A DNA stretch of 32,155 nucleotides, taken from NCBI GenBank assembly GCA_013329415.1, contig DUKH01000067.1:2139-34293 (forward strand), given 5' to 3'. Of the stretch, positions 8,399 through 28,236 are shown piece after piece. Each line of letters starts with the position of its first letter. Position 1 is the stretch's first letter. The notes under the pieces are model-generated. The model ran no database searches. It was not told the origin of the DNA and worked only from the letters and a program-made list of their open reading frames with translations. Both the position numbers and the translations under genes were made by a program. Origin of the DNA: Methanosarcinaceae archaeon (GTDB taxonomy: Archaea; Halobacteriota; Methanosarcinia; Methanosarcinales; Methanosarcinaceae).

Positions 8399-8633
8399 AT
8401 GCTCCCCCCTTTAACTGGGCATTTGATGCATTCACCACACTGCCCTGGCGGTAAACCCCCCGCATCTCGGATTTTTCAAAGTGTGGGTTTATTGTGGATT
8501 CTGAAGCCGGGAATCTATCTGCCCGGTGTTTTACTCTAAAAATTATATTTTCTTCAAAATATCTATTGTTTTTTATATATATTCCACGGGATTAATTCTC
8601 CTGAACAATGATCTCTTTTCCACCTCCGATTCT

Positions 8634-8789
8634 ATGTCTAAAAGCAGTATTCTGACTGAGAAGGCCTGGAAAACTCTTTTGTATGAGCAAAAAGATTGGC
8701 TGAACACAGATTATCTAACCTCAAATCGGGCTAAAAAATTCAGAATAAAAAATGATGAGTTAATAATGGGTAAGCTAAAAAAGGTTTAA
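8634..8789 (+). CDS. Short ORF, possibly a gene remnant
   Basis: A TATA-like TTTTTATATATATTCC near 8567-8583 precedes a 51-residue frame starting ATG at 8634. The product is charged and helical (LTEKAWKTLLYEQKDWLNTD). The pattern resembles the extreme N-terminus of archaeal AAA-type ATPases that begin with an EQ-K/D-rich helix, but that is only an impression. There is no clear ribosome-binding site. The frame extends to 8526, but that part overlaps the promoter and looks non-coding. Either a tiny gene or a truncated remnant. Confidence 0.25.
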   Translation: MSKSSILTEKAWKTLLYEQKDWLNTDYLTSNRAKKFRIKNDELIMGKLKKV

Positions 8790-8826
8790 GATAACGGTTT
8801 TCCTGTTAATTGGTGAAAAATCGAAG

Positions 8827-8890
8827 CGTATTTCGGCATGAAACTTGGACGTATTTAGCATGAAATGTAGACGTATTTAGCGTGAAAAAA
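8827..8890. repeat. Three 22-bp direct repeats
   Basis: CGTATTTCGGCATGAAA, CGTATTTAGCATGAAA and CGTATTTAGCGTGAAA follow each other at a 22-23 base period, between the short ORF and the 3' end of tRNA-Trp. Function unknown. Confidence 0.8.
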
Positions 8891-8941
8891 AATATTTATT
8901 TTTTAAACAAGTAGTTCTTTTTTAACGTATAAAAATAAAGG

Positions 8942-9137
8942 TGGGGCTGGTGAGATTCGAACTCACGATCGACGGGTCTCTCCGAACAACTGCCTCAACA
9001 GTTTTAGTTCTATGAGCATCAATCAGTGCTCCAACGGCTCCTCATCGCCCTTCCCCGTCGGGAAGAACTCGGTAGACCCGTTGTTCATCATTTTATCCGC
9101 TGGAGCCCGTCGCCATACCGGGCTAGGCCACAGCCCC
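8942..9137 (-). tRNA. tRNA-Trp (CCA anticodon), intron-containing
   Basis: Exon 1 runs from 9137 to 9100: acceptor GGGGCTG, D arm GCC...GGC, anticodon 5' strand ACGGG, loop CTCCAG. Exon 2 runs from 8977 to 8942: A38, anticodon 3' strand CCCGT, T arm GTGAG TTCGAAT CTCAC, acceptor CAGCCCC, discriminator A. Anticodon CCA gives tryptophan. The 122-base intron sits at the canonical 37/38 position. CCA is not encoded (ACC then T). A TATA box lies upstream at 9171-9181 on this strand. Confidence 0.95.
8978..9099 (-). ncRNA. tRNA-Trp intron carrying a box C/D 2'-O-methylation guide
   Basis: Within the intron I read box C ATGATGA (9085-9091), a guide ACGGGTCT (9074-9081), a D'-like CCGA (9069-9072), C' CGATGA (9042-9047), a guide TGGAG (9029-9033) and box D CTGA (9023-9026). 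By the rule that the fifth nucleotide upstream of D/D' marks the target, the D guide pairs with positions 32-36 and marks C34. The D' guide pairs with A36-T43 across the spliced junction and marks C39. This matches the intron guide known from Haloferax tRNA-Trp (positions 34 and 39), except that nucleotide 39 is C here. D' departs from CTGA by one base. Confidence 0.75.
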
Positions 9138-9170
9138 TTATAAGGGTAAGCGTATGAACATCTACTTTCT

Positions 9171-9181
9171 ATTTTATATAG
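9171..9181 (-). promoter_or_regulatory. TATA box of tRNA-Trp
   Basis: On the minus strand the sequence reads CTATATAAAAT, about 35-45 bases ahead of the tRNA 5' end at 9137. Confidence 0.65.
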
Positions 9182-9496
9182 TTGTCGGCATGAGGGGCCC
9201 GGGTCATGGATTTTTTGGGGCTTACTGTTCCATAAAGTTTATCTCACTTTGGGGGTGAGAACTTTTCTGGGTTTCTGGAGCTGTGTTTCGGGAAATATTC
9301 ACAAAATCTGTGGTTCCCAACCGGAAAGGTAGAATAATCCGAATTTTGGTATACCCGAGTGTCTGGTGAACCTTTAAGGCCGGGCCGGAACTCTTTGTAT
9401 GGAAGTGTCCAGGGCCTGAACCCTCAAAGCTGAACCTTGAGGATCTTCAAACCTGAACCTTAAGCTGGGCTTTTAAGCCTGAACTCTGCAGGGAAT
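9182..9496. other. Gene-free stretch with CTGAACC repeats
   Basis: No open frame longer than about 22 codons with coding character is apparent. From about 9415 to 9490 there are repeated CTGAACC motifs and small inverted repeats such as CCTCAA...TTGAGG. Nothing else is recognised. Confidence 0.5.
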
Positions 9497-9652
9497 TCAA
9501 GCCAGGTAATTGTAATAAATCCATACCAGGATTGCCAGAATCGCAATTGTAAAAGAGATGTATCCCAGCAGACGAATTATGAAATCATATACGGTTATCT
9601 TACCCGTACCTTTACGGTCGAAGTACTTCGCTATTTTTCTATTTAATCTCAA
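9497..9652 (-). CDS. Small membrane protein with an EF-hand-like loop
   Basis: A 51-residue frame from a TTG at 9652, with GGAGG eleven bases upstream. The N-terminal half is basic and contains FDRKGTGKITVYDF, a degenerate EF-hand-like loop (Asp at position 1, Gly at 6, Ile at 8, Asp at 12, but Lys at 3). The C-terminal half is a single hydrophobic helix (YISFTIAILAILVWIYYNYL). Such an arrangement suggests a peptide held in the membrane with its charged head in the cytoplasm. Coding is supported by clean helix periodicity and the ribosome-binding site; the rare start and 11-base spacing weaken it. Function unknown. Confidence 0.45.
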   Translation of the reverse strand: MRLNRKIAKYFDRKGTGKITVYDFIIRLLGYISFTIAILAILVWIYYNYLA

Positions 9653-9712
9653 TGCTGTTGGAGCCTCCGATTCTATTTTTTCCTCTTATATTGGGAGTTT
9701 TTGCACTTAAAG

Positions 9713-9850
9713 ATGTTTATGACACCTGAAGAAGAAAGGCCCTCAAAGGCTGATCCCAAATCTGTAATGTCTGCCGAAAAAGTTGTATTGAATGACCCGG
9801 GACCAGCTCAGCAAAACGAAAACACTTCTGCGTCAAAACTCCATAAATAA
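9713..9850 (+). CDS. Small hydrophilic ORF, possibly leaderless
   Basis: A 45-residue frame, ATG at 9713 or at 9719. The product is polar and low-complexity, rich in Glu, Pro, Ser, Lys and Asn, with no predicted fold. A TATA-like CTTATATT at 9685-9692 lies about 25 bases before the first ATG, which would fit a leaderless transcript. It diverges from the small membrane protein gene at 9652. The evidence is weak, since a frame this short can occur by chance. Confidence 0.3.
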   Translation: MFMTPEEERPSKADPKSVMSAEKVVLNDPGPAQQNENTSASKLHK

Positions 9851-10182
9851 ATATGGCAAATTTTATACGCTATGAAATGTATGTACTGGATGTACCACAT
9901 TAAAACGAAGGTCTCAAAACTTTATTCGGGTCCTATATATGTATCGTAAAAACGGAACAAAGGGACATTAGGGATAAGTAGATATTTTCACTCAATTGCT
10001 GCGATTACATGCTCATGGTTCACTACATAGGGTTAGAAGTAGAATCAGGGCCTTTTGACGTTTCTGAGACCTATTTTGCTTTTTTTTCATCCATTCGGGA
10101 ACAATTTCCACTAAAAAGGAATTGAAAAATAACAATCCACCATGTAATTTTTTTCAGACAATTACTAATTTTTTTTAGATTG
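9851..10182. other. AT-rich stretch without recognised genes
   Basis: No convincing reading frame on either strand and no RNA gene recognised. Base composition is AT-rich, with several T runs near 10080 and 10147-10176. Confidence 0.5.
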
Positions 10183-10192
10183 TTTTATATAG
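10183..10192 (+). promoter_or_regulatory. TATA box of the small transcript at 10.2 kb
   Basis: TTTTATATAG, a strong archaeal TATA match, would start transcription near 10215. Confidence 0.6.
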
Positions 10193-10211
10193 TATTACTT
10201 CAATTGCTTTT

Positions 10212-10228
10212 TGGCTGATATTCAGCCA
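10212..10228 (+). promoter_or_regulatory. Perfect 7-bp hairpin at the predicted transcript start
   Basis: TGGCTGA, TAT, TCAGCCA forms a perfect seven-pair stem with a three-base loop, at the 5' end expected from the upstream TATA box. It could be an operator palindrome or a 5' stem in the RNA. Confidence 0.5.
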
Positions 10229-10257
10229 CTAACCCAAATAAAAAACGAGGGGATTAA

Positions 10258-10377
10258 TTGGGTATGATTCTTGCAATTGGCTATCTCGTGGTCATCGTGT
10301 GGTGCTTTAGACTGCTTGATGAAGCCAGTTGCAGTATCGCAGCAATCGCCGGCAACATCGCTTCACCGTATCAGTAA
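10258..10377 (+). CDS. Small membrane protein (37-39 residues)
   Basis: TTG at 10258 lies six bases after GAGGGG; the ATG two codons later, at 10264, is the alternative start and is twelve bases from that site. The product begins with a hydrophobic stretch (MILAIGYLVVIVWCFRLL), has two cysteines, and ends in a small-residue segment (SIAAIAGNIASPYQ). Composition is clearly richer in G+C than the surrounding DNA. A TATA box, a 5' hairpin, a ribosome-binding site and a strong 3' hairpin frame it as a transcript of about 220 bases, so it may be a small-protein mRNA or a dual-function small RNA. I do not recognise the family. Confidence 0.5.
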   Translation: MGMILAIGYLVVIVWCFRLLDEASCSIAAIAGNIASPYQ

Positions 10378-10400
10378 TTGAAGTAGTGTACCGTGCGATA

Positions 10401-10430
10401 CTGGAGGGAGAGCCCCCTCTCTTCCTCCAG
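10401..10430 (+). terminator. Strong terminator-like hairpin
   Basis: CTGGAGG then GAGAG, loop CCCC, then CTCTC, a TT bulge and CCTCCAG: twelve base pairs with one bulge, followed by ACAACATTTTC. It ends the small transcript that begins near 10215. Confidence 0.65.
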
Positions 10431-10465
10431 ACAACATTTTCACCTCTTCATGCATATTTCACATT

Positions 10466-10774
10466 TTAAAAGGAGAATTGAAACATCGACTTAAAAATGA
10501 AATACAGATTATTAAGGCAGAGAAAAATTCCAGCTGAAGTAGGAATTGCCGTATATACTTTTCTTAATAATGGTGAAGAAGTTTTGTAAAGATAGACAAA
10601 CACGGGCAGGATTGACATCTTTACTAACAGGAACAAACCCGGCTTTGCCACTATATCATACAGGATGGGATTTCTTTCAACATATCCAAATTCAATGGCA
10701 ATTAATGTAGTTACGAAGTCACCTATAACAAAAAACGTAACGACTGGCAGAGAATATGTGATAAATTTCTTCAT
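10466..10774 (-). CDS. DUF5658-like small membrane protein
   Basis: The 102-residue protein has three or four hydrophobic helices. The N-terminal segment GDFVTTLIAIEFGYVERNP matches the signature of DUF5658-type proteins: a helix with an acidic residue and double threonine, then an E-x-NP motif. The family's function is not known to me. The ATG at 10774 has a modest GAGA upstream, and a TATA-like ACTATATATT lies at about 10802-10811 on the opposite strand sense. It converges on the terminator hairpin of the small transcript. Several neighbouring short frames also encode membrane peptides. Confidence 0.7.
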   Translation of the reverse strand: MKKFITYSLPVVTFFVIGDFVTTLIAIEFGYVERNPILYDIVAKPGLFLLVKMSILPVFVYLYKTSSPLLRKVYTAIPTSAGIFLCLNNLYFIFKSMFQFSF

Positions 10775-10974
10775 ATTTCTCGAAAAATAAACATTTCTAA
10801 TACTATATATTCATTTTTAAAAATATCAATATTGTTTTTTTATTTTTATAACGTTTTATATTTTTGAAGCTTCTTATCTGTTGGGGATTAGAATAGATCA
10901 GTAAGGGTCCGCAGGGGTCGGAAAAAGAGCCTCATAAAAAACTTTAATTTATATGTTTAACATATTGAATCAAG

Positions 10975-11142
10975 ATGAATGTAATGATAGGAGTCTTCAT
11001 ATTTATAATAACATTTGCAACAGCAATTGTATATTTCTCAAAAACAAAAAATTTGACATTCTCGACATTTCGCGATTCAATTTTTATAGCATTATTATTT
11101 GGAGTAATAGCTGCAAGTAGGCAAGAAATACGCGGGTACTAA
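10975..11142 (+). CDS. Small two-helix membrane protein
   Basis: A 55-residue frame with two hydrophobic helices (MIGVFIFIITFATAIVYF and DSIFIALLFGVIAA) separated by a polar, threonine-rich turn with basic residues. A TATA-like AATTTATATG at 10946-10955 ends about 20 bases before the ATG, so the message is probably leaderless; there is no ribosome-binding site. The next small membrane gene starts 41 bases downstream. No family recognised. Two clean helices in such a short frame favour a real gene, but AT-rich DNA can encode hydrophobic peptides by chance. Confidence 0.45.
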   Translation: MNVMIGVFIFIITFATAIVYFSKTKNLTFSTFRDSIFIALLFGVIAASRQEIRGY

Positions 11143-11183
11143 AAATAAGCTACATTTTAGGCTAAAACATTGCTAGTCAGGAA

Positions 11184-11354
11184 ATGTTAAATATGGAGAA
11201 AGTTTCAAAGAAATACCTATTTTTACAGTTCATTACAGCCTTTATAACATGCACATTCTTAGGGTACCTGTTTCACGATGTAATGAATGGAATAATCACT
11301 GGAATTGGCGTTGGAATTGGGTTAATTATAGTATCTGCAATGCAGAACTCCTAA
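11184..11354 (+). CDS. Small two-helix membrane protein, second of a pair
   Basis: A 56-residue frame with start at ATG 11184 or ATG 11193; CAGGAA immediately ahead of the first could serve the second. A basic head (EKVSKKY) precedes helix one (LFLQFITAFITCTFLGYLF), then a HDVMNG turn and a glycine-rich helix two (IITGIGVGIGLIIVSAM). Topology is much like the preceding 55-residue protein, and both are probably on one transcript. No family recognised. The glycine-spaced second helix suggests helix packing or oligomerisation. Confidence 0.45.
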   Translation: MLNMEKVSKKYLFLQFITAFITCTFLGYLFHDVMNGIITGIGVGIGLIIVSAMQNS

Positions 11355-11490
11355 ATTCATTACTTTGTTAAAAATCCGTTGTATCCGGGGTTGTAAACAT
11401 GTAGATACTGGGTAGCTGAATGAGGTAATAATAACTAAATATTTTTGGGGCTTTGTCTTAAAAATAATTTGGACACTAAAGGTGTTTTTA

Positions 11491-12347
11491 ATGACCAAAT
11501 CAGAAACGACTCCTACAGCACAAGTTTTTATGGATATTTTTGATGTTTTTGATGCGAATATTGTACGAATTAATGATTAGGACTTACGCAGTTGAACAAA
11601 AAACCAGTGTCATGAGACACCAAACTGTCTAAATCACAATATTTTTGATAACGCCTTATGCACTTGTTTTCACATTTCAAGTGCGTAACTCCTAAATGAT
11701 GTTGTTAATAATGATTTTTGTGATGCAGCAATAATTATGACAGTCAGTGCGCTAGAGGTTTTTTTCACTGACTTACTCAAAGAATACAAAAATTTCTGGT
11801 TCACTTCGTAGGCCGGAGGTAATATAACTGCGGTAACTCGGGAAAAAAGACTTGAAATTAAAAAAAAATACGTTCATTTTTAATTTCAATTAGGGCATAT
11901 GATGATTTTTTGAAGAATTACTATGTATATCAGGATCAAACAGATCCAGATATTGATAGTATTTATGAAACACTTTTCTTCGGAAATGGCAGAAGTAAAT
12001 TAAATTTTCAAAACTTGAAGGAAGATTATGGTGTAAGGAAAGCATATAATTTGTTTTTTAATGTTGACCTGATGAAAATGCTTGATCCTAATGAAAATGA
12101 ATCTTCTAATAAATGGAATGACTTGAATCTTTTATTTAAAGAAAGACACGATATAGTACACAAAGGAAAAGGCACTTCTTTTTCACAAGATAAAATCAAA
12201 GAAATATTGAAATCCCTAATATACATGAGGGATCGGTTGGCTGAAATAGTGATTCCTCGTTATCCATACCCTGATAGCTGTCTAACGCAAACACCTGCCT
12301 CGCATGAATTTAGAGACTCTTATCCTGCTAAAAAATTACTTACTTGA
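11491..12347 (+). pseudogene. HEPN-type protein gene disrupted by a MITE-like insertion
   Basis: Three pieces read together as one protein. Piece one (11491-11577) encodes MTKSETTPTAQVF to RIND. After the inserted element, piece two continues in the same frame (VVNNDFCDAAIIMTVSALEV then FFTDLLKEY), ending at a TAG at 11809. A shift within an A run near 11861-11869 leads to piece three, open to 12347, which holds KWNDLNLLFKERHDIVHKG. The SALEVFF helix and the RHDIVH (R-x4-H) motif are typical of HEPN RNases of the MAE_28990/RiboL-PSP kind, often toxins. Piece three is open from a TTG at 11910 and could still be expressed alone. The HEPN subtype is uncertain. Confidence 0.65.
11578..11694. mobile_element. 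117-bp MITE-like element with 19-bp inverted ends
   Basis: The left end TAGGACTTACGCAGTTGAA (11578-11596) and the reverse complement of the right end, TAGGAGTTACGCACTTGAA (11676-11694), match at 17 of 19 positions. The element is flanked by a direct 6-bp AATGAT at 11572-11577 and 11695-11700, the expected target-site duplication. It has no coding capacity. Removing element and one duplicate restores the HEPN reading frame exactly. The parent insertion sequence is not in this window. Confidence 0.8.
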
Positions 12348-12807
12348 ATTTTTGTCGTGAACTTTGTTGCCTGTAAACAACTGCCAGGAATTCATTTTCC
12401 AGTAGACTTGCCCCATAGCCTGCAGGAGCGCTAGAATTCTTGTAATCAAAAAAAGGTTCAGTTAATTTAAGGCCTGAAGCCCCATGTTCTACCCTTCATT
12501 TTTTTGACTAATTTTTCCTTCGTCTGCAAGTTTTAGTTATCTATTCCTTGCAAATATTGGATTGAATCCTACCGTTTCAGAAACTTAAGAAGCCGTACAA
12601 GTGGTCTCTTCCATACATTCCGTGACCGCCTTCAAAAAATATTCATCCATAAATTCTTTTGAAAATCGAGAGTCGTTTTCAGTCCTTTGGGAGTGACCCC
12701 ACATTGTAATAAGGATTGAAGGGAACCCTGTATAAAATTTAGATTAGGATATCCTTATAACTCAATGACCCCAAAAAAAGAAGTAAGGCTTTGTACTGAT
12801 AGCTTTA
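12348..12807. other. Non-coding stretch with one possible remnant ORF
   Basis: Mostly unrecognised sequence. On the minus strand, 12585-12704 encodes 39 residues (MWGHSQRTENDSRFSKEFMD, then EYFLKAVTECMEETTCTAS), and the frame stays open about 13 codons upstream (SKFYTGFPSILIT). It looks protein-like and may be the tail of a decayed gene, but I cannot assign it. Confidence 0.3.
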
Positions 12808-16739: not shown

Positions 16740-17238
16740 ACCGGTCTTTCACGGTCAGGCTAATTAATTGCGGCTGTGTCCTGCAGCCGGAAGTTCGGTT
16801 TTAATCACGTATTTGATTTAAATTTTATCTCAATTACGTGTTATATTTAAATTACGTCTGTGGCTTTTGGATCCTGGGAAGATCTTTTTGGGAAGCTTAA
16901 TTGATAAATTTGAATATTGTGATGGCACCTCTTTTTCCCGGAATCTTTCAGATTGGCGGTCAAGATATCCGGCGAGGACCGGCCATGCTAACAAGGTTAA
17001 GCTACACAAATATAGCTACACATATATAACTGATACTATCGGCTGATACTCCCAACTTACTATCAATTAAATACGGCAATTAAAAGCTTACCTTCTCTCA
17101 GGCTTGATCCGGAGCTTTTCGAGTGTTTCGGAGGAGTTTGGAGGGTTTCTATGTTTTTTGAACTTTGAAATCCCTGCACCTGATTCCCTGTCCCTTAATG
17201 AACCTTTCTGCCTGAAATCGGCTGACTACCCGCCGAAT
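16740..17238. other. Gene-free intergenic region between the rpl44e and priS-GINS units
   Basis: About 500 bases with no convincing reading frame or RNA gene. A short direct repeat AGCTACACAAATAT / AGCTACACATATAT occurs near 17000-17026. Otherwise nothing recognised. Confidence 0.5.
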
Positions 17239-24218: not shown

Positions 24219-24237
24219 AAAAATGTGGAGTTGCGAC

Positions 24238-26451
24238 ATGGAATTCAATTTTTCAAGAATGATAGCGGTAGCTGTAGCCGGGCTTATGTTACTGACTCTT
24301 TTAAGCCCTTCAGCTTTTGCGGTTACTTCTGTAAGCAGGAGCATTTCTTACGACACAAACAAAACCTCCTCAAGTGGACTCACATGGGATGCGACTACTT
24401 TTGAAGGCTTTTACTACTCCGTAAACAAGAACGTCAATTACCTCAACGACGGCTGGGGTGAAAGGCTCTACTTCCAGGAGGATGCTGAAAGTGATAACGG
24501 GCCTCTCGGAAATGATGATAACCCTGACAACAATATCATCGATGATGGGGAACTTATCTACACAATCACGCCTTACCCCAGCACCTACAAGCTCGTATCC
24601 GAACTCGGGCTTGCTGCCGACGAGGTCCCTTCCGATGTAGGGGGCACCTGCTACTACGAAACCCCGTGGTTCGGTGTGCCTTACGTTGCTGTTGAAGGTG
24701 ATGCAACCCAGCTTGCCAAACTCGTTTACAAGCAGGGCGGAAGCGACAAGAAGACCGTTAAAGCCGGCGAGAGCTGGGACCTTGGCTGCGGGTATAGCCT
24801 TAACGTAAACCAGGTCGATGTCGATGGTAACAAAGTCTGATTCTCCCTGTACAAGGACGGGGAAGAACTTGAGGACGGCATCATTGATGTTGACAGTACT
24901 GTTGAGAGCCAGACCTTTGCCGCTCGTGCCGATTTCGGTGATGATTCCGACCAGCTTTACTTTATGACCTACGTTGAGCAGGTCTTCCAGGGCAGTGTCG
25001 ACTCCCTTGCTGTTTTCAGGTACACCTGGCTCATTGACAAGGGAAACGTGCTTCTCATCTCCAGTGACGATGTCTACCAGGGCTTCAATGTTGACGTTGC
25101 CTCTGAAGGCGGGCTTGAGCTCTCTAATGACAATTCCATCACAATCGATGTTGAAGACGACCGGAAGACCTACTTCACCGACTCCTGGTACTTCCAGCCC
25201 TCTGATGAGGACAAAGGAACCGGGGGAAACGGTTACATCTTCTATCCCGCAGTGGACAGGAGCCAGCCAGGGACCTATACCGTGAGAGGTATTCCTGTTG
25301 ACACGGCCCTTACCTCTGCTCTGGACTGGAACCCGGCCATTTTCAGGGGTTTCTACTACTCCGTAAACAAGAACGTCAATTACCTCAACGACGGCTGGGG
25401 TGAGAGACTCTACTTCCAGGATGAAGAAGGCAGTGACAACGGCCCTCTCGGAAATGAAGATGACCCTGACAACAATATCATCGATGATGGGGAACTTATC
25501 TACGAAATCACACCCTATACCAGCACCTACAAGCTCGTTTCCGAACTCGGGCTTGCTGCCGAGGATGTCCCTGCGGATGTAGGCGGGACCTGCTACTACG
25601 AAACCCCCTGGTTCGGTGTGCCTTACGTTGCCGTTGAAGGCGATGCCACCCAGCTTGCCAAACTCGTGTACAAGCAGGGCGGAAGTGACAAAAAGAATGT
25701 TAAGGCCGGGGAGAGCTGGGACCTTGGCTGCGGGTACAGCCTCAACGTAAACCAGGTCGATGTTGAAGGTAACAAAGTCTGGTTCTCCCTGTGCAAGGAC
25801 GGGGAAGAACTTGAGGACGGTATCATTGATGTAGACGGCACTGTTGAGAGCCAGACCTTCGTAGCCCGTGCGGATTTCGGGGACGATTCCGACCAGCTTT
25901 ACTTCATGACCTACGTTGAACAGGTCTTCCAGGGCAGCGTTGACTCCCTTGCTGTCTTCAGGTACACCTGGCTTATCGACAATGAAAATGTGCTTCTCAT
26001 CTCAAGCGACGATGTCTACCAGGGCTTCAACGTTGATGTTGCCGCTGAAGACGGGCTTGAGCTCTCAAACGACGATTCCATCACAATCGATGTTGAAGAC
26101 GACCGGAAGACCTACTTCACTGACTCCTGGTATTTCCAGCCCTCCGACGAGGACAAAGGGACCGGGGAAAACGGTTACATCCTCTATCCTGCCTGCGACA
26201 TAACAGTCGAAGCTCCGGAAGAGGAAACCGAATCCGATGAAGTAGGCGAATCCAACGAAACAGAAGTCATCGAACCTGCAGAAGACAAATCTGCCGAAGA
26301 TGAAACCGGAGACGAGCAGGTTAAATCCGGGTCAGAAGAAGAGGAATCCGAAGGTTCGGAACCTGGCAGTGAAGAGAAGTCTCCTGGTTTTGGCCTCCTC
26401 ACGGCGGTCTTCGGAATCTCTGCAGTGGGCTTCCTTGTGAGGAAAAAATAA
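24238..26451 (+). pseudogene. S-layer protein with two S-layer duplication domains, interrupted by one TGA
   Basis: One frame runs from the ATG at 24238 (GGAG seven bases upstream) to 26451, broken only by TGA at 24838, codon 201. It encodes a signal peptide (IAVAVAGLMLLTLLSPSAFA), two Methanosarcina-type S-layer domains (DUF1608 family) offset by 314 residues, a Glu/Ser-rich stalk, and a C-terminal SPGFGLLTAVFGISAVGFLV helix with a basic tail, like PGF-CTERM sorting signals. At the matching place the second domain and the neighbouring paralog both have TGG (NKVWFSL), so TGG to TGA is a single G-to-A nonsense change. Everything else is intact. Such proteins form the paracrystalline cell surface. 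Restart within domain 1 from the ATG at 24964 would lack a signal peptide. Confidence 0.88.
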
Positions 26452-26982
26452 CTTAAAAGAATGTCAGAAGGACGAATCCGTAAAAAGGATATATTCGGGA
26501 GAAGGATAATTTAATTTCCTTCTTCTTAATTTTTTAGTTGTTTCCCTCCGTAATTTTATATTTCGACCGGCTTCTTTGAACTGGTTTCAATCAGGCCGGC
26601 ATATTTTTCCACTCTTTTTATTTTGCTATTTCACTTTCTTTTCTTCACCCGGATTTTTTTTCTTCCCCAAGATTTTAATTTCATTTATTATCTTCCTCTT
26701 TTCTTCCTCTTTTCCTTGTCATTTCCTTTTCCTTGTTATTTCCTTTTCCTTGTTATTTCCTTTTCCTCTTCTCTATTTTTCATTCTGTTAACACCTGTTT
26801 ACGCCCGGTTTGCTTTTTTCAGATGTTATTTTCTTATATTTTTGTTCAAATTAGTAAAACTTATAAATTATTGCAAATTATTTATTGCTACTTTGGTTTA
26901 ATTTGATGTTATCCTGTGTTCATAATATCTGTATTGTTGTTATCTTGAGTATGGGATTCTATGAATGTGATGGTGTTGTTTC
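26452..26982. other. Pyrimidine-rich intergenic region between S-layer paralogs
   Basis: From about 26520 to 26800 the plus strand is almost entirely T and C, including three 17-base units beginning CCTTGTTATTTCC at 26714-26764. It probably ends transcription of the upstream gene. A TATA-like CTTATAAATTA near 26859-26869 may serve the downstream paralog. No coding frame is credible here. Confidence 0.6.
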
Positions 26983-28236
26983 ATGAATAATCTGCCAAAA
27001 ACCCTATCTTTAATTCTGGCCGCTTTCACGGTTTTTTTACTCCTTGCCCCGGCAGGGATGGCGGCTTCCATAAGGGGCCTCCCCCTTGACACAAATGAAA
27101 CCTCAGCTGATGAATTTTCCTGGGGTGCAACTACCTTCGGAGCTTTTTGCTATCCTGTGAACAAACACAATAATTTCGTCACCAAGGGGTGGGGCGAACA
27201 GCTCTACTACGAGGATAAAGCGGGTAGTAACAACGGTCCTCTGGGGAGTTCCGCTCCCGGGAACAACGTGATCGATGAAGAGGAACTTTTTTACAAAACC
27301 GTCCCGTACTCCTCCAAGTATACTCTTGTTTCCGAGCTCGGCCTTGATACGAACACTTCCGAAGAAATGCTGGGCGGAATGTTTTATTACATGCTCCCCT
27401 GGTTCGGGAGACCCTATATTACCGTTGAAAACGATGCCACCCAGCTTGCAGCAGTTGTCTGCAAACAGGGAGGGAGTGACAAAAAGACCATAAAATCCGG
27501 CGAAAGCTGGGAACTGGGCAAAGGCTATACCCTTACTGTCCACCAGGTCGATGTTGACGGCAACAAAGTCTGGTTCTCTCTCTACAAAGACGGGGACGAA
27601 ATCGAATCCGGCATCATTGAAACCGACGGCACGGTCGAAAGCCAGGTTTTTACCGCAACCGCCGACTTCGGGGATGCGGATGACCAGCTCTACTTCATGA
27701 CCTATGTCGATAAAGTTTTTATGGGTGCAGTCGACTCTCTTGCAGTTTTCAAGTACACCTGGCTCATTGACAAAGACAATGTGATGCTTATCAAAACCGG
27801 TGACGAGTACCAGGGGCTTGAAGTTGATACTGCAGAAGCTTCGGAAATCATCCTCACTAACAAAGACACAATAACCCTGGACCTCGACAAGGACAAAAAG
27901 AACTACTTCACCGATTCCTGGTACTTCCAGACCTCCGATGAAGGAAAGGGTAGCTCCGGGAATGGTTACGTAATATACCCTGCAATGGATGTCACGATTG
28001 AGGACAATACCGTTTCCGAATCCGTGGAAAACGATGTGACAGAAGAGGTGGATATCACTCCTGAAGATACGGATTCGACGGTCGATTCACCGGGTTCAAA
28101 AGCTAGCCCTGTTCCTGATGTCCGGGAATCCGAATCTTCTTCTGAATACACTGAGGAAAGTTCGGAGCAATCTCCGGGATTCGGGTTTCTGACCTGTATT
28201 CTGGGACTTTGTGCAGGCTTTGTAAGAAGGAAATGA
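26983..28236 (+). CDS. S-layer-family protein with a single duplication domain
   Basis: The 417-residue paralog of the preceding gene has a signal peptide (LSLILAAFTVFLLLAPAGMAA), one S-layer duplication domain (about 35-330, with GWGEQLYYEDKAGSNNGPLG, then NKVWFSLYKDGDE and NYFTDSWYFQTSDEGKG), an acidic Ser/Glu/Asp stalk and a C-terminal SPGFGFLTCILGLCAGFVRRK, a PGF-CTERM-like anchor. Domain sequence is well diverged from the two halves of the large gene. Start ATG 26983 has GGTG upstream. It could be an auxiliary envelope protein, and is the only intact S-layer gene here. Confidence 0.88.
   Translation: MNNLPKTLSLILAAFTVFLLLAPAGMAASIRGLPLDTNETSADEFSWGATTFGAFCYPVNKHNNFVTKGWGEQLYYEDKAGSNNGPLGSSAPGNNVIDEEELFYKTVPYSSKYTLVSELGLDTNTSEEMLGGMFYYMLPWFGRPYITVENDATQLAAVVCKQGGSDKKTIKSGESWELGKGYTLTVHQVDVDGNKVWFSLYKDGDEIESGIIETDGTVESQVFTATADFGDADDQLYFMTYVDKVFMGAVDSLAVFKYTWLIDKDNVMLIKTGDEYQGLEVDTAEASEIILTNKDTITLDLDKDKKNYFTDSWYFQTSDEGKGSSGNGYVIYPAMDVTIEDNTVSESVENDVTEEVDITPEDTDSTVDSPGSKASPVPDVRESESSSEYTEESSEQSPGFGFLTCILGLCAGFVRRK

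Follow-up and report, generated by a model that had tools for sequence, protein, structure and literature searches.

An in-frame TGA in a two-domain S-layer paralog of a Methanosarcina-type archaeon, probably a recent null allele in a dispensable gene

In Methanosarcina barkeri and M. acetivorans, nearly all of the S-layer is made by a single gene of the PF07752 (DUF1608) family, slmA1 (Mbar_A1758 and MA0829, respectively), and transcripts of the slmA1 paralogs reach a few percent of slmA1 levels at most (PMC3361143). In-frame stops that lie within sequence under purifying selection have been reported to be widespread in prokaryotes (PMC7918605), and a form of tRNA-Trp with a 4-bp anticodon stem is known to read UGA (PMC13092985). 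Here we describe a PF07752 paralog (gene A) that carries one in-frame TGA in a Methanosarcinaceae archaeon. The gene lies in a window of 32,155 nucleotides (GCA_013329415.1, contig DUKH01000067.1, positions 2,139 to 34,293), whose coordinates are used below. The assembly (G000) is of Methanosarcina type and has 3.86 Mb in 226 contigs, with a completeness of ~95%. It was compared mainly with the complete 4.21-Mb genome of a sister species (G001) and also with sequence of a second sister species (G002). Methanosarcina sp. KYL-1 is the closest named relative at the gene A locus (71% in protein).

Gene A (24238 to 26451, forward strand) belongs to a frame of 743 codons (24223 to 26451) that has a single internal stop, a TGA at 24838 to 24840 in the context GTC TGA TTC. 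This is codon 201 counted from the ATG at 24238 and codon 206 counted from the ATG at 24223. The former ATG is the likely start; a GGAG motif (24227 to 24230) lies 5′ of it, and the G001 ortholog has no earlier in-frame Met. Both of its PF07752 domains score over the curated cut-off, with matches to the family on either side of the stop, and the gene also encodes an acidic linker. The N terminus is hydrophobic and signal-peptide-like (MIAVAVAGLMLLTLLSPSAFAV) and the C terminus is hydrophobic and anchor-like (SPGFGLLTAVFGISAVGFLVRKK), and, as seen in translation, both are kept in the orthologs. This layout of signal-peptide-like start, tandem PF07752 domains, short acidic linker, and anchor-like hydrophobic C terminus is that of the slmA1-type proteins (MA0829, MM1976, and Mbar_A1758) and of the DUF1608/PF07752 paralogs, and gene A matches MA0829 (PDB 3u2g) by sequence. 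The frame has no lesion other than the TGA, and the stretch 3′ of the stop still looks constrained.

Within domain 2 of gene A (25348 to 26192, forward strand), the codon that matches the TGA reads TGG; it lies at 25780 to 25782 and is codon 516 of the frame from 24223, in which the stop is codon 206. TGG is also present in the adjacent paralog (gene B) and its two-domain counterparts in G001, G002, and KYL-1, as well as in each domain of the G001 gene A ortholog. Translation of the KYL-1 gene A ortholog gives Trp at this position in both domains. The comparison with domain 2, gene B, and the orthologs thus reduces the stop to a single G-to-A difference at base 24840. The first-pass annotation, made from the letters of the window, had described a lone TGG-to-TGA change in an otherwise open S-layer frame, with TGG in the second domain and the paralog, and this holds in the orthologs as well; the position it gave, 24838, marks the start of the codon, whereas the base that differs is the third. 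Gene A carries one mark of a pseudogene, a disabling in-frame mutation found in none of its orthologs. It resembles young nonsense-mutation pseudogenes and the in-frame stops of prokaryotes (PMC7918605) in having one stop, no other lesion, and intact orthologs. Unlike those, it is built of tandem repeats, and a homologous copy of the mutated codon survives intact at a distance of 942 bp.

We consider it probable that the TGA is a recent and genuine nonsense mutation in a dispensable and probably weakly expressed paralog, making gene A a young null allele. A ribosome that terminates at the TGA would stop after about 200 residues. The predicted product (24238 to 24837, forward strand; 200 residues) would have the signal-peptide-like start and PF07752 positions 2 to 140 of 259. 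Since it would thus consist of an incomplete first domain with no membrane anchor, the gene would effectively be a null allele in this strain, and the mutation would be too young for other lesions to have built up. The open frame 3′ of the stop (24964 to 26451, forward strand; 495 aa from an internal ATG) keeps a PF07752 match and the putative anchor and has no signal-peptide-like start. We infer that the stop is real and terminates translation, that the fragment is nonfunctional, and that expression is low. Most likely, then, the stop reflects gene decay of an ordinary kind and no new mechanism. If it is real, it would mean that Methanosarcina can dispense with S-layer paralogs apart from slmA1, and that these decay or vanish between sister species.

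Loss of a major envelope gene, as the first-pass annotation had proposed among its options, is ruled out by the presence of a separate slmA1-type ortholog in G000. The slmA1-type protein of G001 has 684 aa, and its predicted start (...ADSVEIR) agrees with the published mature N terminus of Mbar_A1758 (PMC3361143). Its ortholog in G000 is split over contig ends (C106, 6773 to 7407, and C90, 2 to 145), with 81 to 94% identity to the G001 protein overall and 86 to 94% in the larger pieces; because of this break, a search of the G000 assembly would misjudge the gene as missing. Gene A, in contrast, is a diverged paralog interrupted by the TGA, with 36% identity to the G001 slmA1-type protein, and is not the closest match to it in the genome. 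By our count, G000 has about ten genes of PF07752 type.

Gene A is absent from G002, where a 370-bp spacer between a pelota-like gene and gene B matches 26693 to 26964 of the window, a segment that sits just upstream of gene B. That the whole gene is missing from a sister species indicates that it is dispensable, and of the explanations originally listed for the stop, a strain-specific knockout is the best supported. Gene B (26983 to 28236, forward strand) is an intact tandem PF07752 paralog. It has one domain, not two, as does its counterpart in G003 (L069, 253 to 1551), whereas the counterparts in G001, G002, and KYL-1 have two. The one-domain forms of G000 and G003 are closely related to each other and differ from the two-domain form found in G001 and G002. 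This distribution suggests allele exchange or loss of a domain at the locus. The variable domain number of gene B, together with the loss of gene A in G002, points to a recombining locus, at which the gene A/B region may have been gained, lost, and reshaped through recombination.

Two other PF07752 genes of G000 also contain in-frame stops and no other damage, giving 3 of about 10 with gene A, compared to 4 of 158 other genes (p = 0.005, post hoc test), and in-frame stops may therefore be over-represented among the S-layer paralogs of this genome. The gene on C212 (L070, 7549 to 12249, reverse strand) has 1,567 codons, three PF07752 domains, a NosD-like repeat stretch, and no frameshift, with a TGA at codon 544 (Trp in related domains) and a TAG at codon 1142 (Glu in related domains). 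The gene on C82 (L110, 2603 to 5956, reverse strand) is the ortholog of a 1,113-aa PF07752 protein of G001, and TAG replaces two of its conserved residues, a Tyr and a Gln near the C terminus; elsewhere it is as conserved as its relatives. A tRNA-Pyl (CTA) was found on C57, so TAG could be read as pyrrolysine, and either pyrrolysine insertion or error is possible for the C82 codons. In-frame TGA codons were also seen in two genes on C166 (L121): one at 17097, which replaces a conserved Gly (GGA) in a gene of 256 aa with 93 to 97% identity to its relatives, and one at 2013 in a large repeat-containing protein of surface type. The possibility that in-frame stops are a general trait of PF07752 genes is ruled out, as there was 1 internal stop among the ~155 best PF07752 matches listed for 61 genomes of the family and, at 27 other loci, relatives of genes A and B lacked genuine internal stops, the few apparent cases there looking like frame noise. 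None of the PF07752 matches over the cut-off in G001 to G003 had an internal stop. Redundancy among the paralogs or locally poor assembly of the repeated domains would each explain the clustering in G000; clustered, undamaged stops of this kind set a base-calling problem against rapid turnover of surface genes.

The TGA could also stem from a miscalled base or a faulty consensus, or from a minority strain variant that entered the assembly, with gene A intact in the cell; we consider this possible but unlikely. The fragmentation of the assembly, many sampled stretches of which contain N gaps, is compatible with such an error, as are the otherwise undamaged C212 and C82 genes, the well-conserved C82 gene having two TAG codons. 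Indirect comparisons across the genome speak against it, though not at the level of a single base. Private nonsynonymous and synonymous changes numbered 270 and 765 in G000 and 340 and 989 in G001 (52 gene comparisons, with two query genomes and some genes counted twice), and this equal ratio indicates that errors are not in general excess in the assembly. In the alignments of orthologs, internal stops were likewise as frequent in G000 (6 in 53,768 codons) as in G001 (4 in 50,242 codons; p = 0.76), with a few cases near gene starts that may be start-site noise, and none were present in the PF00005 and PKD domains among the matches listed for G000. A best-of-six-frames version of a codon-usage scan missed gene A itself. 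These comparisons also weaken the idea of a genome-wide error or an altered genetic code, which the several in-frame stops had first hinted at, and, because the complete G001 genome has a similar stop rate, they place the gene A stop at the background level of gene decay. The TGA could alternatively be read through, a near-cognate tRNA-Trp sometimes inserting Trp at the UGA so that a low level of full-length protein is made. The replaced residue is indeed Trp, gene A has no other lesion, and in-frame stops amid purifying selection are reported to be widespread in prokaryotes (PMC7918605), but the stop is conserved in no ortholog. Among all 39 tRNA matches in the G000 assembly (~95% complete), the sole tRNA-Trp found (8940 to 9137, reverse strand) has the anticodon CCA and a 122-nt intron, and its mature form has the normal 5-bp anticodon stem, unlike the UGA-reading form with 4 bp (PMC13092985); no tRNA with a UCA anticodon was among the matches. 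Furthermore, TGA ended 223 of 441 long open reading frames sampled (TAA, 201; TAG, 17), with a similar distribution in G001, and is thus a working stop in this organism. A reassignment of TGA to Trp is ruled out by the tRNA set and by TGA being the commonest stop. With TGA as the commonest stop, a CCA-only tRNA-Trp, and no suppressor tRNA found, programmed read-through is unsupported, and we regard read-through of any kind, an option in the first-pass annotation, as very unlikely.

The presence of TGG in domain 2 also allows for a reversible off-state, in which gene conversion from domain 2, a possible donor, restores TGG or spreads the TGA, so that the gene could be turned on and off. The locus does undergo conversion: the two gene A domains of KYL-1 are 96.8% identical to each other and 76 to 79% identical to those of other species and have therefore been homogenized, and the variable domain number of gene B and the loss of gene A are in line with recombination here. 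The repair by conversion that had been suggested earlier is therefore possible in principle. In G000, however, the two domains of gene A, previously called near identical, are 89.9% identical in DNA (76% at third positions), and domain 1 has 46 private sites, whereas the three remaining copies have 11, 18, and 19 (p of about 1e-6), which indicates that there has been no recent homogenization. Nor was a simple repeat or slippage tract found at 24838; the change is a substitution, which speaks against a phase-like switch as first envisaged, and no on/off population is known. We thus find it extremely unlikely that the gene is in a switchable off-state. A broader scenario, in which S-layer paralogs of the lineage (gene A and those on C212 and C82) are repeatedly silenced by in-frame stops with no further damage and can be reactivated by conversion from neighboring domains as a reversible coat repertoire, is likewise extremely unlikely. 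A young null allele that arose by nonsense mutation remains our preferred interpretation of the gene A stop.

The excess of private sites in domain 1 includes synonymous changes and so suggests that this domain has had a separate history, through a higher rate of change or through exchange with a lineage that was not sampled, rather than relaxed selection alone. The ratio of private nonsynonymous to synonymous codons was 17:18 in domain 1 and 11:27 in the other copies, a difference that was not statistically significant (p = 0.10).

Two minor observations concern the part of the window around the tRNA-Trp gene. At 9021 to 9095 (reverse strand), the intron of this tRNA gene is a match to sR3, a family of box C/D guide RNAs (Rfam RF01133). 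The segment from 8400 to 12800 is gene poor between densely coding flanks and contains only short or apparently broken frames (for example, around 11680 to 12350) along with two tRNA genes.
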